This document shows, one piece after another, positions 17,481-53,849 of a DNA stretch of 64,000 nt. Under the pieces are notes generated by a model. The model had not been told where the DNA came from. It did not search any database and saw nothing but the letters and a program-made list of their open reading frames with translations. Both the position numbers and the translations under genes were made by a program. Each line of letters begins with the position of its first letter. Position 1 is the stretch's first letter. The stretch comes from Cymbidium sinense (taxonomy: Eukaryota > Streptophyta > Magnoliopsida > Asparagales > Orchidaceae), in NCBI GenBank assembly GCA_021442155.1, contig CM038222.1, positions 114,021,121-114,085,120 of the forward strand, read 5' to 3'.

Positions 17481-18480
17481 TTCCAGGAGGATCCGTTTGT
17501 TGCCTCCACTAGTGGTGCATCTACAACCGACAGTTTCTAGGAGTAGGAGGTTGTACATTGGCCTTTGCTCTATTCTACGCTAAGTAGGTGGAGCCTACAA
17601 ATGCTTGAAGTCTGATACTCAGTTTGATTTATGATATGTTATCCCCCACAGTGTAGGGAGGCAGATCCATCAGGAGAGGGCCCATGAGGCCCATACATCA
17701 TACATTACTAGTAGAGAGTGATGGAGGTTCAGCCGTCAGTCAGTCTCTTCTACTTTGGTTGACCTTCTAGCTCGGTGCGATACCCGCGCTGACCATACTG
17801 ATAGTATCCTCCTCACGGGGACCAGCCATCACAAAAGGGTTGCTCCTGTACATAGAGAGTCGGTGGTGTCTCCACCCCATGGCTCTACCCACATCCACCG
17901 CCGTCAGCATCATCACCATTCCATCAAGGCCATGAAGAGGCTTGGGGAAAAATATACCCCGTTGGTGATCCAGCTATGACCAAGGGATCCTACTCCTCAT
18001 ACACCACCCATTGTGGTAGGGTCGAGCTCTCCTACTCGACCTTCTGCCCCAGTAGTAGTGCAGAAGAAGTGGCGACCCCGGAGCATCATGGTCATTCCAT
18101 CACCGACTCCACCCATTCAATCAGACGAAGATGGTGTTGACTATCATGGATATTCCAAATGACATTCCATGGCGTAGTGGTAGAGGATCATCCTAGGATT
18201 GTTACCCCTATTACATCCAATATCAGTTAGGATTATCATTCTTCTAGTGAGTACAGTCTACACAGGATTGACTCCCTAGCCACAGGTGAGGTCCATTGCC
18301 TCTCGGTGCATGATAGCAATCACACTAGTCAGCCCAAGCTGTTTGTACCTATAGAGTTAAATCGATCCTTAGATGAGATAGTTGCACACTATTTTATGGA
18401 GAAAAAGTAGATCTTACGGTATGCATGGTCTGATGAAGAAATAGTCACCTTCAATCCAAATAAAGATGACTTGATGGGGG
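17480..18480 (+). pseudogene. Extra coding region upstream of gag, Tat element 1
   Basis: Decayed frame whose part at 17740-18010 (DLLARCDTRADHTD.ILLTGTSHHKR) is clearly related to 63735-64000 in element 2 at both the nucleotide and protein level. The two copies fall at the same place relative to the LTR end and leader, so this is element sequence, not captured host sequence. Ogre-type elements have an extra ORF1 of unknown role at this position. The open frame at 17755-17979 is its best preserved fragment. No domain was recognised. Confidence 0.6.
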
Positions 18481-19900
18481 ATTCAACTAGCATATGCATG
18501 GCCGATACTAGAGGTTTTCTTCTCAGGGAGCAACAGGCTATGGAAGGTGATGAGGTTGATCAAGGAGACACCGCAGAATCAGCCCATCACCTTCTCCTTC
18601 AATTAAGGCATAAAGATGAATAGATTGATAGGATGGCACAGTAGTGGCAGGACTTGTTAGCAGTAGTGTCAATGCTTTAGAAGCAAGCCCCTCCAGTTCA
18701 TCCTAGTACAATCGATGTCAATCAACCAGAGTTAGTGCATGTCTTAGATCCAGTTAAGACTCTACCTTCTGTTGAGCAAGGTAGCACTAGTCTGTATAGG
18801 AAGGTAGTGGATAGTACCTCCATACATGGAAAAGATCTAAAATCCATGCTTGAGTAGTAGGTGAAGAAAGCTTTGGCTCAAGCCTAGCGAGGATCATCAG
18901 TTCTAAAGGGTAGACCCTACCAGAGGAATTCGATGCTATCCAGTATCGTAAGGGTTTTGTGTCTCCTTCATTCAAGAGCTTTGATGGCAGTGGAAATCTG
19001 AGGCAGTATATAGCTCACTTCACACACAGATATTGCAATGCAGGTGGCAGCGATGCTTTACTCTTTAGACTCTTTGTCAGTAGCCTAGCGGGTTTTACTT
19101 TTGATTGGTATGTTGAACTGCCCAATGGTTCAGTTAAGACATTTGCTGAGTTAGAGTAACTCTTCATTAGGAGATTTGATGGAGCTTAGCAAAGGGTTAC
19201 GGTAGGTGATCTCGTTGTAGCCCAATAGTATTTTGGTGAGTCACTTATTCATTATATTCTCTGATGGCATAACCTGAGTACAAAGGGTGAACCACAGCTA
19301 TCTAAGCAGCATACCATTGAGATTCTCTAGAAGAATACCCATGGCCCAGTCGCCTTCATGCTTAAGGGCTTCACTATAAAGATATTTGAGAAGCTAATCA
19401 ATAAGGGGGCTAGTCTACAAGAAGAGGCCAAATAGTTGCCTTTTGGATCGGTTCAAAGCAAAATAGCAAATCTAAAGGAGGTAGAAGTGGTTGACAAGGG
19501 AAGTAGCTAGCTAGAGATCAGTCTAAGTGACCATGACCTCAGTAGCCTCCACCTCCTTTGCCACCACCAAGGTAGCCATACCGGCCTCCACCTCAACCTC
19601 CATGGGCAGCACAGCCACCGCCTCAGCCATACCACCAACAGCAGCAGCATGCATATCTCCCGCCAGGTAGCTATGGTCCACATACTCTATTAGATAAGTT
19701 AAACAAATCTTATTCTTTTAAGAGGGAGGTAATTTGGAAGATCTTTAAGAATCTCTTAAAGAAACCTGATTTTTAGCTACCCGAGCTTATGAGAACGGAG
19801 GAAATAGGCAAAAGTCATGATCCAAACTTTTGCCCTTAACCCCGTATGCAAGGCCACATTTTGGAGGATTGCTTCACATTCAAGGGTTGGCTTAAGCACA
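18480..19900 (+). pseudogene. gag of Tat element 1
   Basis: The 18910-19440 stretch encodes the retrotransposon gag core: SPSFKSFDGSGNLRQYIAHF, then FVSSLAGFTFDWYVELPNGS, then LFIRRFDGA. This is the usual F.G..P..HL..F / L.G.A..W...LP pattern of plant Ty3/gypsy gag. A proline/glutamine-rich region follows at 19540-19680. A zinc-knuckle-like remnant (FCP*PRMQGHILEDCFTFK) lies at about 19828-19885, where the expected tyrosine/histidine residues are hit by a stop. It is interrupted by many stops, mostly TAG. Confidence 0.8.
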
Positions 19901-21030
19901 ATTTCAAAATCAGTGTTGTCGTTATCCCGAAGGAATACCTTATGGAATAACCTTCTAATTCTATTAGGGTAATCCTTGGGTATACAGTGATCCTACCAAA
20001 ACCAAAGAAGGTTGGAACACTCCTTTGTCTAAAACCTCTAAGAAAATCATTTAGAAGATCAAGAAGCTTTCTTTGTAGGTTCCTGAGTCAGGTTAAACCT
20101 CCAACACCAAGGAAGGTTTGCAAGTTGCCAGTGCCAACTCTAGGAAAGTGGGAGCTCAGCAGCAGTAGCATGTGTCAACCCAGGATAGCCCCTTAGCATA
20201 GCCACCGACCATGTCTAGACTCCAGCCTTCAGTTGCAGCTTCCACACCGATAACTTTTAACATTTCAACTAGTTCTTTTGTTTCTTCTACTAGTAGAACT
20301 CTTGTATCAGGGGATAAGGGCATCAAATACCTTATTCCACTCACTCTACCTGACTTCTACTTTGTACCTCCAAATACATCCAAGAAATTGAAGAATAAAG
20401 CTGATTTGAATTACATCTGTGTCTCTTCTGATGAGTTATCTTCTTCTATTCCTAATGATAACTCTTTAAGTCTAACTAACTATAATAATTTTGATCTTCC
20501 TCTTTCTAATTCAGATTTGGACTTTCCAACTCTGAATACTATGAGTTCACCTCTTAAGATTGACTTAGAATCATCTAATTTTGAGGGTCCCATAGGAGAA
20601 GTTATAGGTGAGCTTGAAGTGCAAGTAGAACTTGCCACCACCTTGCCTCCAGAGATTACCGAAGTCAACCTCCCTAGTGGCAAGGTTCTACCTCCTAGGG
20701 TAGCACCTCATGATAGAGGGAAACAAGTCATTAGTATTGAAGATTAAGAAGCCCTTCCACAGGGTGCTCCACCCTTAGATATGCTTATGGAAGACCAACC
20801 AAAGGTGAACTACATCATCCTTTCTCATCTAAGAAAGTTACCATCTAAGCTAAAAATAATTTCAATAAATGCACCTCCAAGAAGCTAGAGATAATCACTA
20901 TCAAGACCTCCTTGATTTATGTTATATAGCGGATTTTGGTGATGAGAGCATTATGCAAAAGAAGCCTAATGGATCACCTTCACAGATGAAGACCTTCTAC
21001 TGGGAGACTTGGAGTACAACTGTCCCCTAT
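19900..21030 (+). pseudogene. gag-protease linker of Tat element 1
   Basis: Decayed coding region between the gag knuckle and protease. The longest open piece (20211-20747, 178 residues) is serine/threonine-rich and acidic with no recognised domain. It lies in the same direction as gag and pol and is probably the variable linker of the polyprotein. Confidence 0.55.
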
Positions 21031-21560
21031 ACATTACAGTCAACATGGATAGGTTCAGGCTCACCAGAGTTCTCGTGGGTTTAGGTGCATCAATAAACAT
21101 TACGAACCTAAAGACCCTTGACTATTTGAAGATCGACATCTCTACTCTCTAAGGATATAGGATGATGTTGAGAGGATTCAATGATCAAGGCGATTGGGCT
21201 TTAGGTTCCATAGTGTTACCGTTGAAGATCGGTGATTGCAAGACATCCAAGTTCTACATCATTGATTCGAATACTTTGTTCACTGCTTTGCTTGGCAGGC
21301 CTTGGATACATCAGAACATGATTGTTCCATCCTCCCTTCATCAGTGCATCAATGGGGATGAAAAGCCATTCTCAGTTAGAGAGGTTGAGATCTATGAGGA
21401 TGCGACCTATTATCTTCCTCAAAATATCCTTTCTCGTGAACTTGGACAAAATTCAAATACAAATCTAGAAACAAAAGAAAATGAAACAAAAGAAAAGATA
21501 AAAGAAAATGAAAAGAAAAAGGAAAGTCCAAGTACACAAGAAAGGGGAATTGAGGAATAA
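21030..21560 (+). pseudogene. Retropepsin-like protease of Tat element 1
   Basis: The stretch from 21070 reads VLVGLGASINI. Tat and other plant gypsy proteases usually have an aspartate-glycine-glycine-alanine-serine core here, so the catalytic aspartate has been lost. Downstream are GYRMMLRGFNDQG and FYIIDSNTLFTALLGRPWIH, the normal 'LLGRPW' end of the domain. The tail (21440-21560) is a lysine/glutamate-rich linker. Confidence 0.8.
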
Positions 21561-22629
21561 GTGGATTCGCATATCACATTCCACCCACAGTTCATTCCAT
21601 CATATGGATATGTGGGTAGGATGGCTCAACCTCTATTAGGCAGAGGCAGAGATAGAAATAGAGGTAGTTCCAGAGGTGGGAGACCCCCTAGTTGGCCTTC
21701 AGCCAATAGAGGTCATGTTCAGTTCACAGGAATACCCCTACTATCCACATAGACTTGGAATCTAGTTTGGAGGATGAGTCCAATGTGATTAGTATACCAG
21801 CCAACCCCTCTTAGCGGGTTCCATTGGAGATGACTCTTGATCCATCCAGAAACGAAGACCAGGCCTCCAAGCAAAGCAAAGTATTCAAAATTGGTTTAAG
21901 TGAAACTATTCAGTAGCAGTTGGGAACCTTAGCTCTTACATAACTTACATCTTAAAAAGTTGAAGGTATAGCAGTTAAGGAAGTCCCTAAGTCTTCCAGT
22001 GACATGAAGCAGAAGAGGTTCTTTTTGGGTTCATCATCCTCAAGTTTAGAGCTCGATGGAGGACTTGAAGATACTTTAAAGAATTAATGGAATTACCTTT
22101 TGACTTTTACTCACCTTGTGTTCAAAATCTTATACAAAAAAGTTTAGTTCTTCACACTTGGTCCAAGCACTGGTCAAAATATTTCAAAAAATAATGGAAT
22201 AATATAGGCAGGGAAGCACAATCAAGAGCAGGACTAGGATGATTACAGTGGTCGATGATGAAAGATTGCCTAATTGTTACCAACCATTTGGAGTCGATAG
22301 GTTCTTCTCACATCCCCAACTCTTATGAGAATGCGTGTTTAAAAACTTTAAATTATCAGATGATCTCCAAGTCAAAGAGGCACCGCCAGAATTTGAAGAA
22401 GAAATTCATTCAACAATCGACAAGCTTAAAGAAATCAACCTCAGGACAGAAGAAAATCCTCACCCAACATACATCAGTTCATTGCTAAATGAAGAAGAAA
22501 CCAATGACTTAGTTAGGCTATTGACTGAGTTTAAAGACTTCTTTACATGGAGATAAGAAGAAATGCCTGGATTATCTTCTAGCATTGTAGTCCATAAGCT
22601 AGCAATAGATCCTAACGTTATCCCTATTA

Positions 22630-23300
22630 AGTAAGCTCCTAGATGTATGCGATTAGAAATTGAACAATAGGTCATTTCTGAAGTCAAGAAACTGATCGAT
22701 GCTAGTTTCATCAGGGAAGAAAAATATCCTACCTGGTTAGCTAGTGTCATCCTAGTTAAGAAGAAGAATGGCCAAATTCATATTTGTGTCAATTTTAGGG
22801 ACTTAAATAAGGCATGTCCTAAGGATGAGTTTCCTCTTCCTATACTAGAATTAATGGTGGACATTGCCTCATCTCATGCAGTCTTCTCTTTCATGGATGG
22901 ATCATCTGGCTATAACCAAATCAAGATGTCTCCAGAAGATGAAAGAAAACACTACTTTTGAACCCGTCAAAATCTTTGTTATAGGGTCATGCCTTTCGGC
23001 CTTAAAAATGTTGGTGTTACATGCCAACGGGCCATGACTTAGATCTTCAATGAACTCATCCATCATCAGGTTGAGTGCTACATTGATGATCTAGTAGTGA
23101 AAAGTCTAGAAAAGGAAGACCATCTCTTTGACTTGAGAGTAGTTTTCGAACAGTTAAGATAATATAACCTCAAGATGAATCCCCTAAAGTGTGCATTCAG
23201 AGTCACTTTAGAAACATTCCTTGGGTTTGTTGTTCGACACTAGAGAATAGAAATAGATCCTGAAAAGATTAAATCTATCTTAGAAATGCCACCTCCTAAG
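22630..23300 (+). pseudogene. Reverse transcriptase of Tat element 1
   Basis: Recognisable blocks in order: FIREEKYPTWLASVILVKKKNG, ICVNFRDLNKACPKDEFPLP, FSFMDGSSGYNQIKMSPED, MPFGLKNVGVTCQRAMT, and the catalytic YIDD at 23079-23090 (CYIDDLVVKS). The block LKMNPLKCAF follows. The active-site aspartates survive, but stop codons (TGA for arginine in the TRTR region, TAG and TAA elsewhere) break the frame. It belongs to the gypsy type, as the 'FGL.NA..TFQR' block shows. Confidence 0.9.
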
Positions 23301-23730
23301 AGTTTAACTCAACTCAGATCCTTTCAAGGATGGTTGGCGTATCTAAGATGCTTTATCTCAAACTTATCAGGGTGATGCAAACCCTTCTCAGCACTTGTCA
23401 AAAAAGATGCCAAGTTCAAGTGAGATGATAAGTGCCAGCACACATTTGAAGATATCAAAGAATACTTAGTGAAGCCGTCGATTCTAGCAGCCCCTATCCC
23501 GGGCAGGCCATTGATCCTTTACACTGTTGCATTGGATGACTCCCTCAGTGCTCTGTTGACCCAAGCCAATGATGAGGGGAAGAAAAGTGTTATCTACTAC
23601 CTTAGCCATCATCTAATTCCTACTGAAGCAAACTATCCACCTATTGAAAAACATTACCTAGCTTTGATCTTTACATCTCAGAAACTACTGCACTACATGC
23701 TTTCTTATAAGGAGAACTTAATCTCCTGAA
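23300..23730 (+). pseudogene. First RNase H domain of Tat element 1
   Basis: Follows reverse transcriptase through the connection segment (SILEMPPPKSLTQLRSFQGWLAYLRCFISN). It reads PGRPLILYTVALDDSLSALL, then KSVIYYLSHHLIPTEANYPPIEKHYLAL, the normal gypsy RNase H order. This domain frequently shows altered catalytic residues in dual-RNase H elements. Here the first acidic position appears as 'VALDDS', so activity is doubtful. Confidence 0.8.
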
Positions 23731-23929
23731 CCAATCCACTGTAGTACCTCATGACACAGCCAACGCTTTACAAATATTTGGCTCATTAGTCCATGATACT
23801 CTCACAGTTTGATATCACATTTGTACCCCTCTGTATGGTAAAAGGACAGGCACTAGCGGATTTCTTAGCAGCACACCCACTTTCTATTGATTCTCCGCTT
23901 AGTGATAATCTCCCCGATGAACAAATCAT

Positions 23930-24400
23930 TAACTTAGGGGAGGTAACGGGCAATGGGAGATGTATTTTGATGGTGCTACTTCTTTTCTTAAAGGTTAAGC
24001 ACCACGATCTATTCTCGGGAAAGGCAGTAGAATAGTTCTTCTAACTCTAAATCGCTATGTGATGAGATTCTCATACTATCTTTCCAATCCCTACACCAAC
24101 AACGAAGCTGAGTATGAGGCTTTGATTATCAGTTTGGATTTAGCCATTACTATCAATGTCAAGAGCATCAACATCTTTGGGGATACTCAGTTGGTCATCA
24201 ACCAGATTGTCGGGTCCTACCAGGTTCTCAAACCCAAGCTTTATCATTACTATGAGTATACCATGAAGCTGTTGGCCCAGATTCTTGAAGTCACCATCTA
24301 CAAGGTTCCTCAAGCAGAGAATGCAGTAGCAGATGGCTTGGCAAAACTTTCCAAAGAGTTGGCTTGTCCGAAAGATGAGTCCATTTCAATAAGGGTCTAA
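23930..24400 (+). pseudogene. Second, archaeal-type RNase H domain of Tat element 1
   Basis: Starts at about 23950 with WEMYFDGA, then NEAEYEALIISLDLAI at about 24098-24145, GDTQLVINQI at about 24180, and NAVADGLAKLS at about 24320-24352. The order of D, E, D, D residues matches the extra RNase H known from plant Tat elements. A frame break lies near 23990-24060. The open frame at 24059-24400 is most of this domain. Confidence 0.85.
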
Positions 24401-24499
24401 AATAGACAAGTCTTATCCCTTATTGATGCTAAACTCATCAAGAGACTTTCTCTTAAAGGGGATATTATCATTGCCAAAATGGACAAAGAGCTGGATTAG

Positions 24500-25740
24500 A
24501 GGCAACCATTCATTACTTGAACACCGACAAACTACCTCAAGAGAAATCTCAAGCCCATCAGGTGAAACATAGAGCACTCTCCTACGCTCTTATTGATGGC
24601 ACTCTGTACCGACAGTCCTTTGACAAAATGTGGTTACATTATTTAGACGAAGCATGTGGCATTATAACTGAGGTACATTTAGGTCTACTTGGAGCACATC
24701 GGTCCGGTCCAAAGATGAAGTTGAAGATCAAAAGACTTGGATACTATTGGCCTTCGATGATCATAGATTACATGGACATAGCTAGAAGATGCCATTAGTG
24801 TCAGGTGCATGATGTGGTCCTCCACCAACCACCCAACATTCTACACCCTACATTGGCTTCATGGCTATTTGAGTGTTAGGGTACCGACATTGTAGGTCTG
24901 ATCGGTCCTCCTTCTTCTAAGGGGCATCAATTCATCTTAGTTGCTATCTACTACTTTTCCAAGTGGGCAGAAGCCATCCCACTTAGAGAGGTCAGAGCTC
25001 ACCATGTGCTTTAATTTTTAGGAACCATATCGTATATAGGTTCAGGGTGCCTCGATGAATTATATTCGATAATGGTACTACATTCAAAATCATGAAGATC
25101 AATAGCTTCGCCAGAAGACACGGTACAGATTCGAGATACTCCACCATCTACTACCCTATAGCTAATGGTTTAGCAAAAGCATTCAACAAAACTCTCATCT
25201 AGATACTGAAGAAGACTCTTGATGATAACAAATGATTATGGAATGAGTAGTTGGTTGAAGCCTTGTGGGCTTATCGCACCACATACCAAACTCTAACTCA
25301 GTCTACCACATTTTCCTTAGTATATGGATTTGAATCCATTCTTCCTTTAGAAGTTCAACTCCCTTCACTAAGGATAGCATTGGGTAACAAGATCACTATA
25401 AAGCAGAATGCAAATTTGCAGTTAAAAGAGCTCGAAGGTTTGGAGGAAAGTCACCTACAAGCGTGCCAGAACCTCGAGTTGTACAAGGCCAAAATGATTC
25501 AAGCTCACAACAAGCTAGTCTACCCTAGATATTTCTAAGTAAGAGAACTTGTGTTAGTCCTAAGGAGATCAATTATTGCCCATCAAAAGTTGAGAGGCAA
25601 GTTTGAACCCACTTGAGAAGGCCCCTATGTCATAGAGAAGGCCTACCAAGGAGGATCTTATTAACTTATTGATTGTAATGGGGAACACCCATTGCTTTCA
25701 ATTAATGGGCTCTATCTAAAGAAATATTACCCATGAAATA
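24500..25740 (+). pseudogene. Integrase of Tat element 1
   Basis: The HHCC zinc region reads EVHLGLLGAHRSG...MDIARRCH.CQVH at about 24670-24810, with one codon changed to a stop. The catalytic core follows (TDIVGLIGPPSSKG..FILVAIYYFSKWAEAIPL at about 24885-24985). After frame breaks comes LWAYRTTYQT...F.LVYG near 25260-25330, and a C-terminal segment ends LLSINGLYLKKYYP at about 25690-25730. This end wording is typical of plant gypsy polyproteins and marks the end of pol. Confidence 0.85.
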
Positions 25741-28523
25741 AAACTTGTTTGAAAATAATTCATTAATAAAAAGAATAAAATTTAATTCCATTCATCAAAT
25801 CTTCTCTTCTTTCGAAGTGTTGTTTGCTTATCTTGCGAATCCGTCGTGACATGTTTAGGGTAGGTGTAAGAGCCCCCCAGTGGTATCCTATCCCTCTTTC
25901 ACAACAAAAACTCAAACTCTCGATGCTTTAGAATAGGTGTAAGAGAACTCGAGAGGCATCCTATTTCGATTAGCATAACTAAGTTAGGTGTGAGAGAACC
26001 CAAGTGGCATCCTTTCTTAGTGGGAATTTTTATTATCATCCACGGCATCATTTCATAATTTACCAACATGTTTTAAGGTAGTTGTAAGAGTCCCCCAGAG
26101 GCATCCTATTCCTTTTAACACATGCACAAAATAAAAACACAAATCTTTTATCTCGAGCTATTTTAATGTGGGAGCAATCCCCCTTATGGCAATCACTTAT
26201 TAGCTGCTCTAGGTCGGGTCTACATGCTACCTCACCAGTGGTCATTTATTGGAGGATGTGTGTCACTGAGCTTTCTTCCTAACTTGATAATTGTAAACCA
26301 CTGAGCGCCTCGTTCGTATGATAGTTTTTACTACCCAGCTAGTAAGCTACCTCATGTTGACTTTACTTAAGAAGATGTGAGTCCCTATCCTTTCTTCTTG
26401 AGCTAGCCATCATGCTCTAACTAGGTCGAGTATATTTAAGGTTTAGGATAAGTCCCCCAGAGGCTCCTTTCCTCTTAACTATTTTTGAGTCAATATAAGT
26501 CCCCGGTGGCACTCAAGTCACCCTAGGTGGGATGGTACTTATCGGACAGACTATCCTAGCGGTCGTTACTATAGAGGATGTGAGTCCTTAAGCTTTCTTC
26601 CTAGGCTAATTATTACAAACCGACGGGCACATTAGGTTGGTTGATGCTTATTATGCTAACAGCGACTCACCTGGTGAGTACACCACTCTTAGAAAATATG
26701 AGTCCCCATGCTTTCTCCTTTAGTTGGACACCGAATACCTATTGGATATATGACTAGCCATGTCATTTTCTTTAGGATGTTGGATTAAGCCCTTACCAGC
26801 CCCATCCCCAGTGGCACTCTATTTGGATCAAATCCTTTGCGACCCGATTTAGACACTACATGGGTTACTTTTAGATTAGACAATCCCCCATTCCTAGTAA
26901 CCACCCCTGTGGTTTGAAACTTTGTTTAGTGGATGTGCAGATTCTTGCTTAGTTCAGTAAATTTGAGATAGGTTTAGTTTGATATAAGCTCCTGCTTAGT
27001 TTGATCCCTTGCAAACTAATAGGGTCCATGATAAAATAAATAAATAATCAAAATAAATAAATAAAAAAGTTAATTCGCTTGTGGATTAGGAATTCAAACC
27101 CCCAAAGGGCCCCTTCTCCAAAGCGCATCCTATCTTTAGAGGCTGTAGAATTTCTTGACTACCTCAGTTGAGATAAATCCCTGGGTCGGTACTCACTCTG
27201 TAGTTGCCATTAGGTCGGGTTCAATCTATTTTTCCATAAGCAGGTTACCCCGGTAATCATTCCGCTTTGAAAGATATAAGACTATGACACATTCTGTCTA
27301 GCATGATTATCACAAACCAATAGGCAGCTCTAGGTCAGGTTTTATTTATTGCTCAAAGCAATCGATCACCCCAATGATTTTTTTCTAGTGGAAGATGTGA
27401 GTCCCCGAGCTTTCTTCCCTTCAATTAATCATTGCAAACCGAAAGGCACTCCTTTGGTTGGATAGTTTTCCCATCGACCAAGAAGCAACTCCCTTTAGTT
27501 CAGTAAATCTGAGATAGGTCTAGGCTTCTATAAGCTCCTTCTCAGTGTGATCCATCACAAACCAACAGAATCCATAAAATAAATCTAAAAATGAAAATTA
27601 ATCTTGACTATTCCTGAGTTGATCTAAGTCTCCTAGTGGCATTCGCTCAATAGTCAACCCTAGTTCGGGTGTGATTTGGTACCAAAAGCAACTGAACATC
27701 CCAATGCTTCCTTATTTCTAGAAGATATGAGTCCCTGTGCTTTCTTCTTAAGACTCAACCATTGTATACCAAAAGGAATTTCTCCTTGGTTGTATACTCC
27801 TACCTTATGGTTGGTAGAATACTCCCTCTGAATTGGTAAATCTGAGTTAGGTCTAGGCTTCCAAGGTCCCTACTCAGTGCAGATCATCGCAAACCTATGG
27901 GATCCATCATAATCAAAATAAATAAAACTAAAACTAAAATCAATCTTGACTATCTTTGAGTTGATCTAAGTCTCCCAGTGGCATTCACTCAATACTCAGC
28001 CCTAGGTTGGGTTCAATCTTTTGCCTTGCCAATAGATTACCCCAGCAACAATTCTTTTACTTTGGAGGATGTAAGTCTACTATGCTTTCTTCCCTAAAGA
28101 TTCTTTACACGAAAGGCATCCCCTTTGGTTGGCTAGTCCTACTATGTTTAGTAGACTACCCCTTTGGATTGATAAATTTGAGTTAGGTCTTAGCCTCCAT
28201 GGCTCCTTTTCAGTACAACCCATTTCAAACCGATAGGGTTCATCTTAAAAATTCAAACCTAACAAAAATTTGAAATAAATCCAACCTTCTCCCCAATGGA
28301 GATCTCTTCTTAGTGAGATTCAAATCAAATCAAACCATTCATCTCCTCGTAGATGACTTGAACTTGCTTCCCTAGTGGAAGGTTCACACTCTATCCCTTT
28401 GTGGATTTCTTCCTTCTCTCTTATGTCTTAAACATAAGTAGCCACATTGCATTAAGCTCGATTCTCTCTTTTCCTTGCATCAAGGATAGATAGTTTATGT
28501 TAGTGCTTGTGATCTTTTGGTGT
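25741..28523 (+). repeat. 3' untranslated region of Tat element 1, built of two tandem-repeat types
   Basis: 25860-26130 carries four short units sharing 'taggtgtaagag.. ccc..gtggcatcctat', spaced about 50-140 bp. From 26160 a longer unit takes over, marked by 'gatgtgagtcc..agctttcttcc', then 'accgaaaggcac..ttggttgg' and 'aaatctgagttaggtctaggct'. Successive marks at 27392, 27721 and 28063 give a period of about 330-340 bp. More diverged units occupy 26250-27060. No long open frame exists here. Repeat-rich 3' untranslated regions of this kind are known for Tat elements. Confidence 0.8.
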
Positions 28524-28919
28524 TGTTGATCATTTCAGTCAACCCTAATACATGCGGTGTTCCTGGTTAGTCACACCACACCTATTGGGCGCCCTTTGTT
28601 GACCTCATTTCTAAAATGAGCTCTCAACACCTCCAACTTAGAAATAGGATTTCTCTTAGAATTTAAGTGTTCCTTAGTCTTAAGACACATCTAGTGATTT
28701 GGTGGACACTCTTACCTAGCCCTAGAAGACTTAGAAGAGTTAGCAAGAGGAATAGGTCATGCCTTATGGGTGTCAGGAAATTTCCTACCCTTTAGCTTAA
28801 AACCTCACTTTCCTTCTCTTTAGTCAAACTCAAATCAATTCTATTTTATTTTCTCAAACTCAAATCAATTCCATAGTTGAAAGCTATGATTGAAACCCAT
28901 GACCAAAATCCATCAAAAA

Positions 28920-29640
28920 ATTCTTAAGTCCAAAAATTCTTATGTCCTTAACCCTTTCTTATGGACTTAGCCAAAATTATCATCAAAACCTATTCAAATC
29001 TTTGAGATTTTCTCATGATCCATTTATATTCTCATTTATATTCACATATATAAATGAAATATAAATTCAAACCCATCAAATCAAATTCAAAATTCAAAAT
29101 TAATTCAAGAAATTTTCTTAAGTCCCTTTAATTTTTCATTAAAGGACTTAGCCAAAATCAACTCTAAACCTTGATCAAATCAATCCAAATTCTTGGATTT
29201 TCTCAAAACCTATTTATATTCTCATTTATATTCACATATATAAATGAAATATAAATATAAATCAATCCAATCAAGGACAAAAATTAAATTCCAAATTTAA
29301 AATGCTTGAAATTCCCTTAAATCCCTTAATTTTTCATTAATGGATTTAACCTAAAATTTGATCAAGCTCATTCAAATTCATGGGAATTTCTCAAAAATTA
29401 TCTGTATTCTCATTTTATTCTCATATATAAATGAAATATAAATATAAATCAATCAAATCCAATTCAAAAATTAAATTTCAATTTAAAATTTCACTTAAAT
29501 CCTTTAAATTCCCTTTAATGGATTTAACCTAAAATCATGATTGAACTCTTTCAAATTCTTGAAATTTTCTCATGATCAATTTATATTATCATTCATATCC
29601 ACATATATAAATGAAATATAAATTAAAACAATCAACCAAC
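28920..29640 (+). repeat. Four tandem repeats of about 185 bp in LTR B
   Basis: Units are marked by the block catatataaatgaaatat at 29044, 29234, 29422 and 29601 (spacings 190, 188 and 179). Each unit has an 'atttatatt...aatataaat' inverted repeat able to form a 9-bp stem, and a 'ttaagtcc...ggacttagcc' segment. Copy C has no comparable array at this place. Confidence 0.85.
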
Positions 29641-29969
29641 TCCAAATATCAAACTCAAAATCACTCAAAATCAAATCTAAGCCTTTCAAGCCAAAATCTT
29701 GAACTTAACCAAATCAATTCTAAATCAGGCCAAACTCTTGATTTTCTCTCATGGTTCAATCAATCCTACAATCATGACTCATATATAAATCCAAACCTCA
29801 ATCAAAAAATCAAAACCCAAATCAAAAATCAAACCCAAGACTCTTTCATATTCTTCTTTTGAATATGAAATTTTCAAATAAATCAAAATCCATTTGACTT
29901 CAAACCACTTGTAAATGGATTTATATTTCAATCATAAGTCCATATACAAGATAAATCAACTTCAAATCA

Positions 29970-31045
29970 AGCTTTGACCAAGTCATTTGACTCACTTAGG
30001 GTCACTTGACCCAAAATGACCTAAAGTACCCTTATGAGCCAACTTTTGATCCTAACCAAATCGGAATGAACCAAACTCATATACCCCTCTCACCATAATC
30101 AACAATCATTATGGGATGATCAATCAATCAAATTGGGTCAAACCAAGTCAAACTTAAGGGTTGACCAAGTCAACACTTAACCTAAAATGAAACCTTCATA
30201 GCCAAAATCCATCATAGGCTAAATTGATTGAAACCATTGATCTAAGTTCACTCATAACCTATGTTTGAACTAGACCAAGCCAACATTTGAGCCCACTTGA
30301 CCCAAGTTGACCCATTTTGACATGAAGGTCCAAAATGTGTCAAAAATTGATCTAAGCCAAATTGATTGAAACCAATGGGTCAAGTCCATTCTAAATCACT
30401 TGTGGAACTTGACCAAAGCCTCAATTAGCCAACTAGACCCAACCTAGCCCAATTGACCTTAGACCCAACATGACCTAAAGGGGTCATGTTGAGTAAAACT
30501 AAACTTAACTTAAATTAATTGGAAACAAAGATACCAATCCACTCCATATGACTAACCTAACCTAAACCTACCCTTGACCTAACCTAAATAGGTCAAATGG
30601 GTCAAATAGATCAACTTAACCCATTTGACCTAAATGAGTCATATGAACCAAACCAAAAGCACCAAAATATTTCAAATGGTCATATGAACTTTACCTAACC
30701 CTTGGTTTGACCCAATTTGACCAATTGGTCAACTTGACCCAAGTTGACCCATTTTGACCTAAATGGGTCAACATGAGCCAAACCCTATCAAATGGATTCC
30801 AAATCTAATGAAACTTGGCCAAACCTATTTTCTCAACATACCAAACATACCCAAATTGAAAAAATTGGAAAAATACCATTTTACTCCTTGTCCATAGAAC
30901 AAATTTTGGCCTAGCCCACAAGTATTTTGGTCATACACTCATCACAATCACTTGAGGCTTTCCTAAAAGCTCAAGGGGACTTAGTGATGAGTGGTTCACC
31001 CAACCCAATGGGTTTTGGTCAACTCATTTGACCCATGGACCAAAC
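29970..31045. promoter_or_regulatory. Dense TTGAC/GTCAA (W-box core) cluster in LTR B
   Basis: By hand count about 27 TTGAC or GTCAA pentamers occur in about 1.08 kb, against about 2 expected at random. Many extend to TTGACC or TTGACT, the W-box bound by WRKY transcription factors. They are often in tail-to-tail pairs such as ttgaccaattggtcaa. The same richness occurs at the equivalent position of copy C. Binding is inference; the motif density is directly visible. Confidence 0.55.
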
Positions 31046-34000
31046 CCGACCCTTAGCCTTGAAATTCAATTTTTGAACTCCCTACTAAGCTCAATTTGAT
31101 GCACATGGGAGTTAGCATTCCACTCCTTTGGCCAAACCCACCACGTGCATTGATCTAACAGCCTAAGCAGTCCACTCTATATGGTCAATTGGATCAAAAT
31201 GGCAAGCTCATTGCCGGCCAATTTATTTCCATAGGGAGAGATATACTCCCCCTAATTCACTAAAATCTAACTTCACTCACACTCAATTGAGGCCTAGAGA
31301 GATTTACCAATCATCAGAGAGCATCCCTAAGCTTCTAAGGAAGATTAGAATTGCTTCTTCTCAATTTTGCACTATGCAAAAATATGGGAGGTGGAGTGAT
31401 TAGCAAACTTCTTCTATACTTGATCCCATCCAAATTCCTTCTAAACTCTTCATCTAAGGACCAAGTTGAGCCTGCCCAAGCATCCATTTGAGTTCCCACA
31501 ATAAGGAGAGCCTCAATTGGATCAAAGCTGCAAGGGAAGTCAAGTGGCGTTGGTCCATAGGAAGATCCACTCAACCCCAAGGCTTGAAACTTTCAACAGG
31601 GCTTCACCTCCAAAAGATGAAGCTACCACATCAATCTTGAGCACTGGTGATTACCTCTAGCGAGGTATGTGATTTTCTGACCATTTAGATTAGGAGGTGT
31701 TGGTCCTTTATAAAATGAATTTTTATTGCATGTGGAATCCACCGTTGGATTGGCTGCTCTACTCCTCTAGATGGTGTGGGCTGAGTCTTGGTTGACTCTA
31801 TGCTAGATCGAGTTCAGATCTACCCTTGGGTCATGGACAGCCTCCATTAATCCTCAGGGAAGAACTTGGCTCATATCAGCCACCCATCCACGCATTTTAG
31901 ATGGACAATTTAGATTATTAGGCATGTTTTATAAATCCCTAATTAATTTAAACCATGGTGTATCCTTGGCCGTCCATCTTTGATTGGGCGGTGATATATG
32001 CCACCGCCTCCCATCAATGTGATGTTTAAGTGGTGGCTCACGCATGGCGTGTAAAGCACTGCGCCATCCACGCGCATCACTCTGTGAGCCGGTATTAAGC
32101 AGGGATTAGTTAGGGATTTTAATTAATTCCAAATTAATTCAAAAAACTTCTAAAAATCATAACTCCTTCAAGAAAATTCAGAAAAATAAAAGGAAAAATG
32201 CTATGGATAGATAATTTCATCTAAATATTTTTAAAATATTTTTAATGTATATTGAATTCCTCTTTTCTCCAAATTTGGGTTTCTTTAGAAATTTTAATTA
32301 GTTCATTATTCTATAATTAAGTCACCAATTGATCTCAAATTTTTAGGGTTCATTTTAGGGCATGACCACTGCCTGGCCTTAATTAGGGAAATTGCTAGTT
32401 CATTCCCTAATTACCCCTTCATGTAATTAAGGGAAATTAAGGTGTGATTAGTGGATTTACTTTATGATTGAGTTTAATTAAGGTTAGATCCAGTGAGTAG
32501 GGGTTTTATGGAATAATTTTAGGGTATTTACCCAAACCTATTTCCTAAACCCCCTTCTTCTTTCCCTAATCCCCTCTTAATTATGGGTTAATTCATTAAT
32601 TATCCCTTTAAATAATTTTCAAAAATTTTAAAATGTTTTAGAACTTAATTAATCTACCTTGGGTAGATGCTTAGGTGTTTAATAGCCTAAGTATAATTAA
32701 GGAAATTAAAACCCTTTCATAAGTATGAAAGGGTGGTTTAAAAGTACTTAAGCTAAACCCCTTAGCTTAATTAACTTTTAATAATGAGCCAAATCGCATT
32801 AAGACTTTTCCTTATTAGGTGCATTGCAAATTTAAATACCATATGGGTTTTATTGCATCTCATTGGCTCATAATTACTTAGTTAATTTTTCTAAGGTGGT
32901 GTAGGTAAAGATTAATTAAATCACTTAATTTATACCTTAACCAAATCAATGCTTAAAAATGAATTTAATTATCTAAAATTTAAATAAAAATAGAAAACAC
33001 ATGTGGGAATGGGTTAGAAATAGGAAACTCATCTCACCTTTTCAAAATTAAATCAAACTTCAAACTAAAAAAATTCATTTTGAAATTCACTTTGATTTAT
33101 TCTAAATTTTCTTATTCTTTAAGAATGCCTTTAGGATTTAAGTAAAGTGAGTTTGTTTGCATGATTTCATTGCTTTGGATCTTTTCTAGCATGTTAAGTT
33201 GTATGTCATGTGATTCATGCATTCATAATTTCATGTTTCAAATTTTAAAATAAAAAATTGTTTACTTTATGTCAAATGTGCATGTGTTGGCTAAAGTAAA
33301 AAATCAATGGCTATTATCACTACTAAATCCAAAATATTTTCAAAACTTATAAATAAAATATCAAATCTAAAAGTGTGTTATTCATATCTTAATTATTAGC
33401 ATGCATGTGATGGATTATAAATTCATGTTTAGTGTAGCCTTTCCTTTCTATCTTATGTTAGCATAGTTTTGAATAGGAGTTAGTAAGATGTAGGGTTCAT
33501 TTGAAAAGAACCCAACACTTACTTAACTCCAAACCCTATTCATCTCTCTGCCATCATTTAAGAAGGATTGCCTACACTTGCATGAATAAATTGCATAAAC
33601 AAAAATGAAACTATTAAACAACTTTTGCATATTCTTTTTTCATTTCATTTCTTTTATATGTATGTTAGTACTTAAGAAAAGTGGTATATTAGTCTGGACA
33701 ACCCTGAGGTTGTGAGGCTTTAAGTAGCCCTAAGTATGTCTTATACCTTACACCTCTGGTTAACAATGGACTGTACTCACTTATGCCTTTATTACTTTCA
33801 TGTATGTGAAATTTTGGATAAGGAAAACCTTTTCTACCTAAGAAAAATCCTACATATTCAACATCTATATTTTCTTAAATGGATTATTTAGCATGCATCA
33901 TGAAGTGTGTTAACTATTCTCATTTGCATGTATAATTTATCCATCCATATGTTATATATGTTTGGAAAGAATGAAGTAATGTGTGTTATTTTGAATTCAT

Positions 34001-34810
34001 TTTATTTAATCTTAAAATACCTTTTTTGAATAGGTTTGTTTAATTTAGGATTGATTAAAAGATGTAATCAAAATATTCACCTAAATGAAATTAAAATGTG
34101 AACTTAGCTTAGAAATTACATAAGGATTAGGGAAGGAAAGAGAAGTTATATTCTCTTTCCCTCTCTTCATAACTTAGGAATTAATTATAGGTTTCACTTA
34201 AACCAAATTAAAACATGAAATAAAAATAATAAAAAACACTTAAATAACTTAAATGAAACTCACCTCTAAGCTGAACATGTCATTCACACTTATAAAACTT
34301 GAACCAAAAAGTCCTAAGCTAAGCATACCACACAAACCTTCAAAGCACACACATTAGCCTGAGTCACCACTTCTAGCTGTTAGGTGCATGGTTTGATGTT
34401 ATATTTGTTTTATGATGAATATTTTAGACTGGATGTTATTGCTCAGAATGAATGGAAGGACATGCTTGGTCAACTATTCATTTCTGTAAGGGATTGTGCT
34501 AAAGGCTATCATAAATAAAATATAAATGCTTCTTGCTTGCAAGTGCTTATACCCCTTGCATAATCCATAGTGGACTTAGTCACCCATGGGGTGATAAGTC
34601 CAATATACATGCTTGGAATTTGTGTGGTGTGATTTGACTAACCTTTGTTTTGTAGGTGTTAGTTAGATTTATACTTTTCCATTTTCATGTAAAAATTTGT
34701 ATATTTAGGATGTTGGAATGATTTATTATGGGGATTACGATAAGCATTGGTCATAAATTCCATCTTATGTGCCATGTGAAGTCTTAGAGCATCTACCATT
34801 CAACCATCCA

Positions 34811-34955
34811 AAGGAGGAACTGAAGAAAAAAGAAGAAAAGAAAAGAAAGAAAGAAGAAAGAAGAAAGAAGAATAAAGCTTGAAGACCCCCATAATAATGA
34901 ATTCCTTTGCTTAAAATTATAATTTAATTCTTTTGTAATCTAGGTTGTATAAGAG
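34811..34955 (+). promoter_or_regulatory. Candidate core promoter of LTR B: purine tract plus TATA
   Basis: A GA-only tract (34811-34876) is followed by a 'gaagacccc' block and by ttgtataagagtagag with TATAAG at 34948-34953, then 'cttggctaccca'. Copy C has the same order (60280-60373). Conservation of the TATA and the downstream 'ggctaccca' against a diverged background points to the transcription start region, which would leave a U5 of about 1.4 kb. Confidence 0.5.
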
Positions 34956-36436
34956 TAGAGCTTGGCTACCCACATTTGATATTTTTGGGTTTGTGCGGTG
35001 GTACCCGACCACAAATGGCCATTTATTCATTTTATGATTTTCTTCATAAATTGTTTGATGATTTGTTTAGCTTTTGCACTAAATGGCATGATTTTCCTAT
35101 TTTTTTTCCTTGCTTTATGTATGGCCTGGACGTGGATTAGGCTCTTTAGGGAAAGATAAATCTTTTACCCAACTTAACAATTCAAATTAAAATTAAACAA
35201 CTCATAACCTCACCAAAAGCTTTGGATTAAAATCAAGATAAAAAAATTTAACAAATCCATGCACAAATCCATCTTATTTCACTCTTGATTGAAGAGCATC
35301 CACCTTTGCCAGAGAACCTGGCTTAACCTTTGAGGGCCGTGGTGGAAACTCACCTCTTACCTTCTCGTAGATTTTGGCCAATAATCTGATTTCTCATGCA
35401 TTAGTCATAAAAATCTTATTATCCTAAGTCAAAATGATTGTCCAAAAATAAAAGTAAAATGAAATTTGAAATGCATTAGATTTAGGTCATTTGAAGCATG
35501 CCCTTTACATGATCTAGTCTCTTTAGGGAGTGAGTTTAAGGTCTTAGTCTCTTTCTACATAAAAATAGCCCAGCTATCTTGCATAAGCATAAAGACTTGC
35601 CTACATGTATTTAAAATCGTAGGAGGAGTTAGTTGGAAGTCCCCGTGCTGTAAGTCCAAGTTGGTGGTTTGTCCTCTTGTGGAGAGGCAAACCAATTACC
35701 CATTTTGCCTTAGATTTAGGTTGTGCTTCCCTCACTAAGCTCCTAGATTTAGGTTCGGGTTGCTTTTCCCTTTGTGGGCCATAAGCATAATTCCTCACCT
35801 CTTAGGCATTTCCTTAATCTTACATTAAGGAATATTAAGTCCTAAAAATTCTAATGAAAAATACAACTCAAACAAACTAAATCAATTTCCAAAATGTAAA
35901 GCCCAATTTTAGCATAGTTTGAGATGCGTGCTAGGTTTCCTACCATCGTGAGCATCTCCTACTTATTCCCATTTTGGCCTCAATAATAACTCCCTCTTTT
36001 GATCAATCTCATTTGATCTTCAAATATAAATCAATCAATTGATTGTCCTTCCTATTGAAATCTTCAAAGACAACGATCATTTACCTTAATGGAGAGTTTT
36101 CTTAAGGGATCTTGTCCCTTAGGATGCAATTAATTATGGGGGCTTGCCCCTATAAGGAACTTAATGAACTCGGTTTAAAATAAACCTTGCTTTACTTTTT
36201 CATGTAAAGAAAGAGAAGAATCTCTGGTACATATGCAGACCCATCATCCTTAAAAGTCCTTATTGAAGTGATTGGTTCCATTAAAGGGTAGTGACTTCTG
36301 TCTTTCGAGATAGTACACTATACCTTGATGATGTACCTTATCACCTGAATACATACATCTACAGATCTGCATGGCATCTTACTAAGATAAATTTCCACAT
36401 ATATAATTTTACCTTTCCATTCACCACAGATTTGAA

Positions 36437-36454
36437 GGTGACTCCGGGAATTTT
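36437..36454 (+). other. Primer-binding-site-like sequence behind LTR B
   Basis: GGTGACTCCGGG lies 8 bases after the LTR end. The equivalent site behind copy C reads TAGTGACTCCGTTAGGG. Both resemble the TGGCGACTCC type of site used by plant Tat elements. Its presence means that B can act as a 5' LTR. Confidence 0.55.
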
Positions 36455-37040
36455 TCTCCCATGAGTATGACAAGATACTCGTGTCATTTTTTGGCAAAAA
36501 GAATAGTTCTGCCTAATGAATTGCATAAAGCTTGGGCAATAAATCTAAGAACCTGGTGTTCCATCCTTGGCCTGAGAATATTATAGTCAAGCAAGCAATC
36601 CATGAGTTAAAATTGTTAACCTCATAAATTTTAATATAACTGAAATACAAATTTGACATAATTGGCAATCAAGAAAAATTAACACTCCAAGTAGTTAGTA
36701 AGTATAAGATGGAAAACCTAAAAGGTTAGTAATTATTGACTAAAAGACCAACTCTTCCTAGTTGGCAATTCAAAAAGGCCAACACTTTATGTGGTTGGTG
36801 AGTCTTATATAAGACCAACACCTAGAGAGGTCAGAGACTATTAATTAAAAAACCAACTCTCTATAGTTGGAAATTAAGAAAACCAAAACTCCTTGTGGTT
36901 GGCAACTTTTGTATAGGATTGATAACCTATGAGGTTAATGAATATTAATTAAAAGATTGACTTGCCATAATTAGCAAAATAAGACTTGACACCCATGGTT
37001 GGCAATAAGAAATCATCAAACTTGTCGTGAATGGCAACTA
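36455..37040 (+). repeat. Leader with about 100-bp hairpin tandem repeats
   Basis: Units start near 36650, 36747, 36852 and 36956 (spacings 97-105). Each begins with a variant of accaactcttcctagttgg, where CCAACT and AGTTGG can pair, followed by ggcaa..aa.. and 'cc..tgtggttgg'. They lie in the leader position behind LTR B, as the different hairpin repeats do behind LTR C. Confidence 0.7.
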
Positions 37041-45102: not shown

Positions 45103-46616
45103 CTATGTAAAAAGTAAAAAAGTCAACGCCAATACATGTTGTGTGCCTTGTCAGTTACACCACACCTATTGGAGGTCCTTTTGTTGACCTCACTTTTGGA
45201 ATAAGGATTTAATCTTCCCATCTTAAACCTAGGAGTCTTCTTGACACTAAGACTTTCTTAATCATAAGACACTTTTAGTAGTTAGGTTAACACTTAACCT
45301 AAACATAGAGGCTTAGGAGGACTTGCCATAAGTTCAGGCTATGTCTTAGGAAGCCTACCCATCCTTTAGCCTAAACCAAGCCCATGTCTACCTCCTTAAC
45401 CAAAACCAAACCTAAAATCAATCCAACCAATCCAAATTTAATTCCAATTCATATCCAACTCCAAGACAAATAATGGAAAACCATAATATAAATCCATTTT
45501 TAGTCCCTAAAGCCACCCTATGGACTTAACTTGAATACCTTCAATCTAACCCAAATCCAATTGATTTTCACAAAACACTCCAACCATTCAAACCTTCATT
45601 CCAACAACCAAGTCAATCAAACCCATTGACCAAAATCAATTTAATCCTTAGCTAGCCCATTTGAACCCAAAATGTCCAAATGAGCCAAAATCCAATTAAA
45701 ACCAAATAAATTGCAATCAAAGCCATCAATCAATTCCAAATCAATTATCAACTCTTAAACTTGAAACTAGCTAAATTGGTCCATTAGGCTCACTTGACTC
45801 AAAGTGAACTAAAGGATCCATTCAACCAAACTCCAATCCAACCCAAATTGGATTTAACAAAGCATCAAAATCTCTTATATTGATATTGATAATCATTGAT
45901 TGATCATTTGCAATCAATTGGGTCAAGCCAAGTCAATTTGGTCATTTGATCAAGTTGACCCAATTAGCCTACATAACCCAAATTGAACCAATCTCCATTT
46001 TACACCAAAAGTGATTGAAACTAATGATTCAAATCAACCCAAAATTGATCTTTGAACATGACTTGACCATTTATTGAGCCAAAATAAACCCAATTGGCCT
46101 TTGACCTAATTTGACCTAAGTCCAAATTAGGCCAAATCAAATTATAATCCAAATTGATTGCAACATATGACTCAAATCCATTTCAAGTTGATTATTTAAC
46201 ATGATTAAACCCTTGGTTGAACTCAATTTGACCAAGCCAACCCAATTGACCCATTTAGCCCAAATTGACCAAAAGGATCAAATTGGTCTAAATCATTCCC
46301 AAATCCAAATTAATTGAAATCAAAACCTACAATCATCTTCAAATAACTAATTGAACCTAAACTAACACCTAACCAACCAATTTGGTCAATTTGACCAAAT
46401 TTGTCAACATTTCCCATTTGACCCAAATAAACCCATATGAGTCAAATTCAAATCTACTCAAAATCAAATCAAACCAATTGAACAAAAACATCCCAAATCA
46501 TCATTTAAACGTGACCAAGCGGTTTGACCTAATTTTACCAATTGGTCAACCCAACTAGCCTAATTTGACCTACATGGGTCAAATTGAGCCAAACCCACTC
46601 AAAACAAGCCCAAACT
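45103..46616 (+). repeat. Giant LTR copy C, first segment
   Basis: Collinear with the first 2.3 kb of copy B: 'agtcaacgccaatacatg', 'caccacacctattgg', 'ttttgttgacctca', the 'cataagaca..tttagtagtt' stretch, then the TTGAC-rich block. It starts about 30 bp after the hAT stop codon, so the element appears to have inserted next to or into the hAT relic. It is cut at 46616 by the SIRE-type copia element. Confidence 0.8.
45610..46585. promoter_or_regulatory. TTGAC/GTCAA cluster in LTR C
   Basis: About 21 TTGAC or GTCAA pentamers by hand count in 0.97 kb, at the position equivalent to the cluster in copy B. Individual sites have shifted but density and pairing are kept. Confidence 0.5.
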
Positions 46617-48809
46617 AATTTTTGAGTTTTAGTAGAAAATTAATTTTTGAGTTTTAGTAGAAAATTAATTTTTGATTTTATAATGACAAGATACAATTCT
46701 TAATGCAACAAAAATAAAATAATAGCAAAGTAAAAATAGATAATAGGCACACAATTTTTACGTGGCTCGGCCAAACCCCAAAACTAACCTATTCCATGCC
46801 TAGTCACTCCTAGCTAGGAACCCACTAAATGCAAAATACCTTACAAATAGTACTCTCCTATAACGAGATAAGTACAACCCCTACAATAATATGTACTCTC
46901 CTATAAAGGGGTGAGTACAACCCCAATATAAATTTTATAGCATAAAAATAAAATATAAAATAATAAATTTGATAAAATAAATCTCATAAATATACCAAGC
47001 TATCCAATTTAAAAAAATTATCTCACAACTTATAAATGATCACTTTATAACTTCAAAATTTTGGCAAGATAAAGTGCTCACTTAATATTGATAAGAAATA
47101 ATAAAATAAATATCTTAAAGTGATCTTACTATGATGTTTATGTTATTACAATTTGTAGACCAATATAAAAATAATTTCAAAATAAATTCACAATATTCTT
47201 TTGCATAATAAAATAAATTTCAGAAAGGAATAATTTATTTTATTTTAACCAAAAGATGCTTTCAATTAATGCAAATGATCACATACTTAAATAAAATTAG
47301 TATATGATGATAGATAAGTAAATAATAAGCTTTAATTAAAAGAGGTCGACAAATAAAAAATAATTTACCATAATAAATTATTTTAAAATGCTTAAAATAT
47401 ACTTCTAAAATAGATCTAAGAATAAATGATCTTTCAAATAAGACTAATGAAGAAATATTTCAAGAAACCAAAAGAAATTTGTAGGAAGATAAAAATTTCA
47501 ATAAGTTGAAAGAAATCCTACAAACAATCACAAGAATTTTCAAATGATTGAAGAAACTTTGATGTGAAAACTTAGACTTTGATGTCCAAAGATTAATCCA
47601 CTAAAAAGTATAAATTAAAAAGAATAAATAGATGGTGAAAATAGTATGAACAACTTAAAAAAGGATTAAGATCAAGAAAACAAACTCAAGTAACTTCAAA
47701 AAGTTTGCTTAGTTGAAGATGTTGAAGCTTCCAAACCAAGGATTTGATCTTGCAATATTTGGAGAACACTTGGAAGAAAAAACTAGGAAATTTTCTCTTA
47801 GCTTTTCTAGAGGGATTTTGAATTTGAATGAGGAATGCTTTCATGAAAAGAATGAGGGCTATTTATAGCAAGAAGGTCATTTTGAATTATTTCAAAAATA
47901 TATATATATTATTATAACATCATTTTATCATATAATAATTTAATATTCATTAAAAATATAATTTATATTAAATAAATATTAAATTTAAATTGCTAAATAT
48001 TCAACTATCACATGGGCAAGTCAAAAATAATCAAATATGGCTCTTAATATATTAAATGCATGTAGCATGCATTCATTATTAAAATCAGCTAATGTTTGAA
48101 AAGTCATATTAAATTCAATTTTAATCAAACCTTGGTCATGTAACCAATAAAATTAAAGAAAAAGTCCAAGGAATCCATTGGAGATGAAATCAGATATAAA
48201 TTCCTTAATTATAAAATGACTTTGGCTAAATACAAAATTCCACATATTTTTGTTAGTTTTAAAATATGACATTTAAATATTATTTTATAATTTATATATA
48301 ATCATACATATGTTAGTTATCATATAACCTTCAAATTAAATTAAAATAAACAATTATGTTAAGTAAATAAAATAATTACACTTAATAGTCATAATTTTTT
48401 TCTTTTATTATTTTGACAATTCAAATGAAATGCATGAAACATATAATTGAATGTTAATTAGATAGAGATTAATATAAATTAACCTTAGTATCATTATTTA
48501 AAATAAATAAAAATAATATTTTAAGTTGTGAGCAAATTGATTCATGTCAATGAACTTATATGGATTTCTAAGATAATTATAAATGCATATAAACTAAAAT
48601 ATTATATCTTGAGCTTCACATTATCCATTTTGACCTGTCCCTCATTCTTCTATTCTTGTAATTTCCTCAAACATATTATGAAATGTATTGGATATGTAAT
48701 TAGCAATAAATATATCTGAAATACATAAAAATATTCATTAGAACATCCAAGCATTCATTTATTATCATCAAAATTGATTGGATTGAACATGAGGCTCATC
48801 AAGCCAACA
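46617..48809 (-). repeat. 3' LTR of the SIRE-type copia element
   Basis: Ends, read on the - strand, in TGTTGGCTTGATGAG at 48809, identical to the other LTR. The opposite end has lost about 80 bp that the 5' LTR still has, and it carries a 26-bp duplicated piece (gttttagtagaaaatt repeated at 46627-46668), a sign of a messy deletion. The short open frame at 48528-48719 is antisense inside the LTR. Confidence 0.9.
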
Positions 48810-48823
48810 ATCATCCCCTTTTT
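48810..48823 (-). other. Polypurine tract of the SIRE-type element
   Basis: The - strand reads aaaaaggggatgat directly before the 3' LTR, the standard position and composition for priming of plus-strand DNA. Confidence 0.8.
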
Positions 48824-50460: not shown

Positions 50461-50463
50461 ATC

Positions 50464-53790: not shown

Positions 53791-53832
53791 GAAAATATCT
53801 ACTCTTGGATGTTAAGCCAATAAAAGAGCCTA

Positions 53833-53845: not shown

Positions 53846-53849
53846 ATTA

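Follow-up and report, generated by a model that had tools for sequence, protein, structure and literature searches.

In a 64,000-nucleotide stretch of the genome of the orchid Cymbidium sinense (hereafter the window; C9:114021121-114085120, one contig of the 3.53-Gb assembly GCA_021442155.1, which has 2,174 contigs), we identified giant long terminal repeats (LTRs) of a Tat (Ty3/gypsy) retrotransposon. In all likelihood, two of the repeats, B and C, are the LTRs of two subfamilies, and a third, A, is the end of the LTR of a third subfamily, of a probably Ogre-like element whose LTRs normally measure 7.2–8 kb. The evidence comprises the borders and lengths of the LTRs in copies throughout the genome, solo LTRs with target duplications, one complete element of the C type and a tRNA primer site.

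Collinear LTR sequences in the window

A comparison of the window with itself revealed collinear blocks, all on the same strand, that join P (44–1537), A (16361–16940), B (28.5–36.4 kb) and C (45.1–46.6 plus 56.1–61.9 kb). With the borders obtained below, the LTR features are:

44..1537, + strand: LTR fragment P, matching B at 31320–32794
16361..16940, + strand: LTR fragment A, the 3' end of the LTR of a third subfamily, cut by an assembly gap
28597..36461, + strand: LTR B, a complete 3' LTR of 7,865 bp (borders from 20 fetched copies)
45182..46618, + strand: LTR C, first part (self-comparison and C-type copies)
56085..61877, + strand: LTR C, second part (self-comparison); LTR C is ~7,224 bp in all without the nested copia element

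Under a permissive scoring scheme, the best scores of B were 213 bits against A, 328 against the first part of C, 401 against P and 835 against the second part of C, while 100 dinucleotide shuffles of B compared with both parts of C and with P gave a top score of 44 bits. B matches both parts of C in long pieces of 58–65% identity and P at 63%, and A is 75% identical to C and 66% to B. In 200-base steps, B and the second part of C are 50–74% identical, with 69–74% in the last three steps; their global alignment is unreliable at 28.7–29.9 kb because of tandem repeats in B.

The last ~600 bp of the LTR separate the copies into subfamilies. Here B and seven B-type copies from elsewhere in the genome are 83–88% identical to each other, and C and both LTRs of a complete C-type element (E2, see below) 82–84%. 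Identity drops to 76–77% between A and the C type, 65–68% between A and the B type, and 69–75% between the B and C types; A, B and C of the window are 66–76% identical. Given these levels, we regard them as three subfamilies and not as LTR pairs. Thus, the four stretches that an initial annotation of this DNA had described as collinear pieces of one sequence are indeed collinear and related, but they belong to three subfamilies and are not mutual pairs. Its estimate that over 25 kb here would be left as 'unknown' is too high, the LTR sequence in the window amounting to ~17 kb (0.58 + 1.49 + 7.87 + 7.22).

Borders and lengths of the B-type LTR

Searches of the genome were scored at the best 40 places per query, out of 8,134 to 17,720 first-look candidates. 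These candidate numbers suggest thousands of copies, without giving a copy number. The query 30000–31000 returned 40 main scored places, including itself and a 96% identical duplicate, all at least 82% identical, plus 22 short rows. Twenty B-type copies were fetched for their borders, one of which (L009) is a near-identical duplicate, flanks included, leaving 19 others. Thirteen of the 19 begin at 28593–28601 without a preceding internal region, three of these (L013, L020, L025) having other LTR pieces upstream; four (L010, L011, L016, L022) extend into the internal region found upstream of B, and two (L019, L027) lack a clean start. The LTR starts with T[G/A]TTGACCTCA (T[G/A]TTGACC), at 28597 in the window, and ends with ...GAATTTTTCACCACA or close variants, the window copy ending in ...TTTTTCTCCCA (...CTCCCA) at 36461. 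The six copies in which both ends could be defined have lengths of 7,257, 7,874, 7,882, 7,886, 7,963 and 7,977 bp, and a seventh (L020), whose end had to be chosen, is ~7,872 bp long.

Two of these copies, of 7,882 and 7,257 bp, lack internal sequence and are solo LTRs bounded by an exact 5-bp target duplication, GGAAT in L018 and GTATG in L021. Separately, some B-type LTRs begin immediately within another LTR (L013 at 1–1825, L048 at 529), a nesting of LTR into LTR. The string GTGACTCCG at ~36437 in B was considered as a primer site and rejected: copies in the genome place it inside the LTR, and the primer site comes after the LTR end.

LTR C and a complete C-type element

The query 45060–45560 gave 38 scored C-type places besides itself and the duplicate, of which 18 were fetched. 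The matches start at 45121–45134 in 24 of the 38 places and at 45176–45187 in the other 14. Eleven of the fetched copies have most of ~590 bp of upstream sequence in common and seven have unrelated flanks, with the identical LTR start point; hence, we place the start of LTR C at 45182 and take 45121–45181 as an internal remnant. Two further features adjoin or interrupt this LTR:

45121..45181, + strand: 61 bp remaining from an internal region's 3' end, immediately upstream of LTR C (C-type start positions and upstream sharing)
46619..56084, − strand: nested copia element with LTRs at 46640–48809 and 53915–56084

The copia element has LTRs of 2.17 kb that are 89% identical (Kimura two-parameter distance, K2P, 0.087), gag, integrase-side and reverse transcriptase fragments above the Pfam cut-offs, and a possible target duplication, read by eye, of ACTAA/CCTAA with one mismatch.

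Elsewhere in the genome, a complete element of the C type, E2, lies at about C2:215657218-215679485 and has a 5' LTR of 7.32 kb, an internal region of 9.2 kb and a 3' LTR of 5.80 kb. Its target duplication is CAAC, or ACAAC if one base is counted in the LTR end too; such duplications in LTR retrotransposons measure 4–6 bp. Its LTRs are 82–86% identical over the aligned pieces, with a K2P of 0.157 over 5,522 aligned bases. At substitution rates of 1.3e-8 and 7e-9 per site per year, this corresponds to an age of 6 or 11 million years, respectively. A second C-type 5' LTR of ~7.19 kb, on C17, is suggested by hit coordinates alone. A C-type element on C4 pieced together from L047 and L048 was given up, as the minus strand there holds another LTR and the C-type LTR contains one of the B type.

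These lengths bear on the possibility that the shared block is a normal-sized LTR joined to conserved internal non-coding sequence, from either the 3' end of the internal region or its 5' leader. Parts of the block as first delimited, 28524–28596 and 45121–45181, are in fact internal. However, the two solo LTRs bounded by exact target duplications are 7,882 and 7,257 bp long, and the 5' LTR of E2 runs 7.32 kb from flank to primer site, making a short LTR very improbable. The lengths initially given for B (~7.9 kb) and for C without its copia (~7.3 kb) therefore stand, at 7,865 bp and ~7.22 kb, whereas the borders of B move from 28524–36428 to 28597–36461 and the start of C from 45103 to 45182.

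A tRNA-Arg primer site follows LTR C

The feature expected downstream of a 5' LTR was found after C:

61886..61903, + strand: primer site, complementary at 14 of 18 positions to the tRNA-Arg(ACG) 3' end and differing by transitions at the other four

Matches were counted against the 18-base complement of the tRNA-Arg 3' end including CCA. A tRNA-Arg 3'-end pattern occurs exactly at 10 places in the genome, as opposed to none for the reversed control, and ARAGORN called tRNA-Arg(ACG) in two of three scanned loci. The corresponding sites match at 15/18 in E2 and 12/18 in the B-type copy L012, whose combination of LTR end and following leader recurs in all 39 other scored places, at 81–84% identity. 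For comparison, the best match averaged 7.7 over 1,996 randomly chosen 60-base stretches of the window, with 0.15% reaching 13 and 0.05% reaching 14. Since the primer site follows C, we place C as a 5' LTR; B is placed as a 3' LTR because an internal region precedes it and no primer site follows it (8/18). After A there is no primer site either (7/18).

The uniform strand of the copies, together with internal sequence on both sides of LTR C, would also be compatible with A, B and C being the shared LTRs of one tandem array (LTR-internal-LTR-internal-LTR), an arrangement implied by the initial annotation. Against this stand the absence of a primer site after A or B, the absence of Tat content from 36462–45120 (see below) and the membership of A, B and C in three subfamilies, and we rate such an array as marginally less probable even than the short LTR discussed above.

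Internal regions and coding domains

The internal sequences of the window and their domains are:

17448..28596, + strand: 5'-truncated Tat internal region before LTR B, similar to 63419–63990 from 17448 on and to the C-type internal region at 18793–23356
22671..22958, + strand: reverse transcriptase fragment (RVT_1, E 8.8e-05, 22.7 bits, below the Pfam cut-off of 29.6)
23424..23726, + strand: first, reverse transcriptase-linked RNase H (RT_RNaseH_2, E 1.7e-21, above cut-off)
23999..24397, + strand: second RNase H, as in Tat (RVT_3, E 2.8e-12, above cut-off)
24457..24795, + strand: integrase zinc-binding fragment (Integrase_H2C2, E 1.1e-4, 22.7 bits, below the cut-off of 25.5)
61904..64000, + strand: 5' part of the internal region downstream of LTR C, truncated where the window ends; it contains tandem repeats at 62305–62782

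The order before B is thus reverse transcriptase fragment, linked RNase H, second RNase H and integrase zinc-finger fragment. An additional RNase H domain distinguishes the Tat clade, according to a survey of plant elements (PMC6317226); the present element is accordingly identified as Tat by its two RNase H domains, which occupy distinct positions and each exceed the cut-off. The 3' end of this internal region is common to L010, L011, L016 and L022, and the internal region of a C-type element elsewhere is 69% identical to 18793–23356; the 5' part is missing or unrecognisable. Used as a protein query, the second RNase H matched 28 proteins; except in one short match their identity did not exceed 45%, and they do not place the lineage.

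No similarity to 16941–28523 or 61889–64000 was detected in 36462–45120, and its 47 open reading frame (ORF) fragments hold no Tat domain; a match to hAT-like_RNase-H at 41991–42173 (E 9.8e-05) lies below its cut-off. Since B is a 3' LTR and the flank beyond it has no Tat content, this segment is not a Tat internal region. Within the window, no internal region adjoins P. Of 40 scored places, a segmental duplicate is the only one to repeat the junction between A and what follows it, and 38 scored places of the query 16650–17500, self and duplicate left out, all stop at 16921–16977; on this comparison, A would not count as a demonstrated 5' LTR of the coding region. The initial statement that the repeats flank Tat internal regions thus applies before B and after C, fails for 36462–45120 and, within the window, for P, and is unsupported for A.

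The segmental duplicate is a second copy of 16650–45560 at C9:112411856-112440535, 1.63 Mb away on the same contig, 92–97% identical at three queries tried and with nearly equal spacing. The only N run in the window, 100 N at 16261–16360, is an assembly gap; bases 1–16260 and 16361–64000 are probably separate contigs joined in a scaffold, and the two sides of the gap need not adjoin in the genome. Scanning the window for Rfam families and for tRNA genes gave no hits. ORF fragments at 12268–13052 resemble a LINE reverse transcriptase by eye, with nothing convincing from Pfam for the one fragment scanned.

Sequence content and age of the LTRs

Among 37 ORF fragments of LTR B and the second part of LTR C there is no Pfam match better than E 0.011, and the longest ORFs (89–112 amino acids) lie at differing places in the LTRs of seven copies; we therefore take the LTR as non-coding, as first annotated. 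Tandem repeats are present in both:

28917..29838, + strand: tandem subrepeats in LTR B, with repeated matches in fetched B-type copies too
58537..59311, + strand: tandem duplication in LTR C (self-comparison)

A G+C-richer block at 31097–32096 diverges fastest among copies, at 75–77% identity versus 81–93% elsewhere. In seven copies, CpG occurs at 0.15–0.26 of expectation over the LTR and 0.36–0.49 in the G+C-richer core, a depletion as would be expected of methylated DNA. The even 83–88% identity among B-type copies suggests that they may derive from one burst. The best non-duplicate matches were 92% for the L012 query, 89% for B, 88% for A, and 84% and 83% for C.

Weighing the evidence

Several observations count against LTRs of 7.2–8 kb as the normal state of this element. 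Of the seven copies that border unrelated sequence on either side, just two have exact target duplications; L017 matches at four of five bases, and L015, L020, L023 and L028 lack an exact match. Neither the pairing of hit coordinates nor a search for the partner of L012, which is not among the 40 scored places, yielded a B-type element that has both LTRs; a candidate pair on C8 proved to be nested LTRs. The 3' LTR of E2 lacks ~1.5 kb, at 5.80 kb, and in another C-type element, E1 on C4, the 5' LTR is mostly deleted, leaving 1,049 aligned bases at 86.5% identity. Among the best 40 places per query no young copy was seen, the best non-duplicate matches being 84% (C type) to 92% (B type). The primer site of L013 matches at 8/18 only, counted without gaps, and the reverse transcriptase and integrase matches fall under their Pfam cut-offs.

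That the blocks are some other dispersed or satellite repeat lying beside Tat elements by chance can practically be dismissed: decay, internal tandem repeats and high copy number occur in such repeats too, but constant borders, target duplications and a constant order, with the internal 3' end upstream or the primer site downstream, do not suit them. The central claim of the initial annotation, giant LTRs of 7.3–7.9 kb in a Tat-type element, is borne out by the independent copies, the two solo LTRs with exact duplications, the complete E2, the primer site and the two RNase H domains. The genome-wide search it proposed for young copies with 5-bp duplications recovered the duplications at the block ends (L018, L021) and, among the best 40 places per query, no young copies, the best non-duplicate match being 92% identical.

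The anatomy suggests that the element was copied by tRNA-Arg-primed reverse transcription and integrated with ~5-bp duplications, solo LTRs forming later. The last ~0.65 kb, the part best conserved between subfamilies, is probably R-U5, and in this predicted division the remaining ~7 kb would make up U3, including the promoter. Separate internal tandem duplications (28917–29838 in B, 58537–59311 in C) account for part of the size difference between subfamilies. The copies would have spread millions of years ago and then decayed, received insertions and recombined; recombination between elements would most simply explain LTR C with internal sequence on both sides.

Comparison with known elements

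If abundant Ogre-like families ordinarily have LTRs of 7–8 kb, a limit fixed at 7 kb will hide them, their solo LTRs will stay 'unknown' repeats, and the share of such elements in large plant genomes would be underestimated. One published pipeline sets a maximum LTR of 7,000 bp with LTR pairs at least 90% identical (PMC10373317) and would discard LTRs as long and as old as these, in agreement with the initial expectation that automatic finders would miss them. A literature search leaving out most subscription literature found no plant LTR of 7 kb or more, from which we do not claim absence from print. We offer it as a tentative suggestion, with the odds somewhat against it, that these are the longest plant LTRs described, with at least two subfamilies, a ~7-kb non-coding U3 and thousands of copies in a 3.5-Gb genome, hidden from finders limited to 7,000 bp and 90% identity and so perhaps widespread and under-annotated. 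They raise the questions of what role a ~7-kb U3 has and how an element with LTRs making up ~60% of its length (2 × 7.3 kb beside the 9.2-kb internal region in E2) keeps transposing, long LTRs being said to lower transcription and transposition (PMC3485330).

The closest known system is probably the Ogre lineage of Tat (Ty3/gypsy, OTA clade), whose members also carry an upstream ORF and a gag-pol intron lying between protease and reverse transcriptase. The tRNA-Arg primer site is common to Medicago Ogre (PMC2533021) and the present element; such a primer is found in 10% of the elements surveyed and is therefore not exclusive to Ogre (PMC6317226). A plant mobile domain ORF is present in 57% of Ogres (PMC6317226); the decayed fragments scanned here gave no Pfam match to it. 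Ogre LTRs are given as 'over 5,000' bp (PMC1142308), the largest Ogre figure found, and those of Medicago Ogre as 2.4 and 3.5 kb (PMC2533021), in contrast to 7.2–8.0 kb here, consistent with the initial placement of these LTRs at or beyond the known range. The Retand lineage is alike in its Tat organisation and long internal region, whereas its LTRs measure 0.3–1.2 kb (315–1,194 bp in recent copies; PMC11963269). BAGY-1 and Retrosat2 are long-LTR Ty3/gypsy elements with LTRs described among the longest (PMC1142308, PMC3485330), but at 4.2 (4,200 bp for BAGY-1; PMC1142308) and 3.2 kb these are about half the length seen here and belong to other lineages, Tekay/Del (PMC6317226). An E2-like element with two full LTRs would be ~24 kb by computation, compared with 24.1 kbp for the longest element surveyed (PMC6317226). 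The present case is thus one of extreme size in a known kind of element, with no new mechanism.

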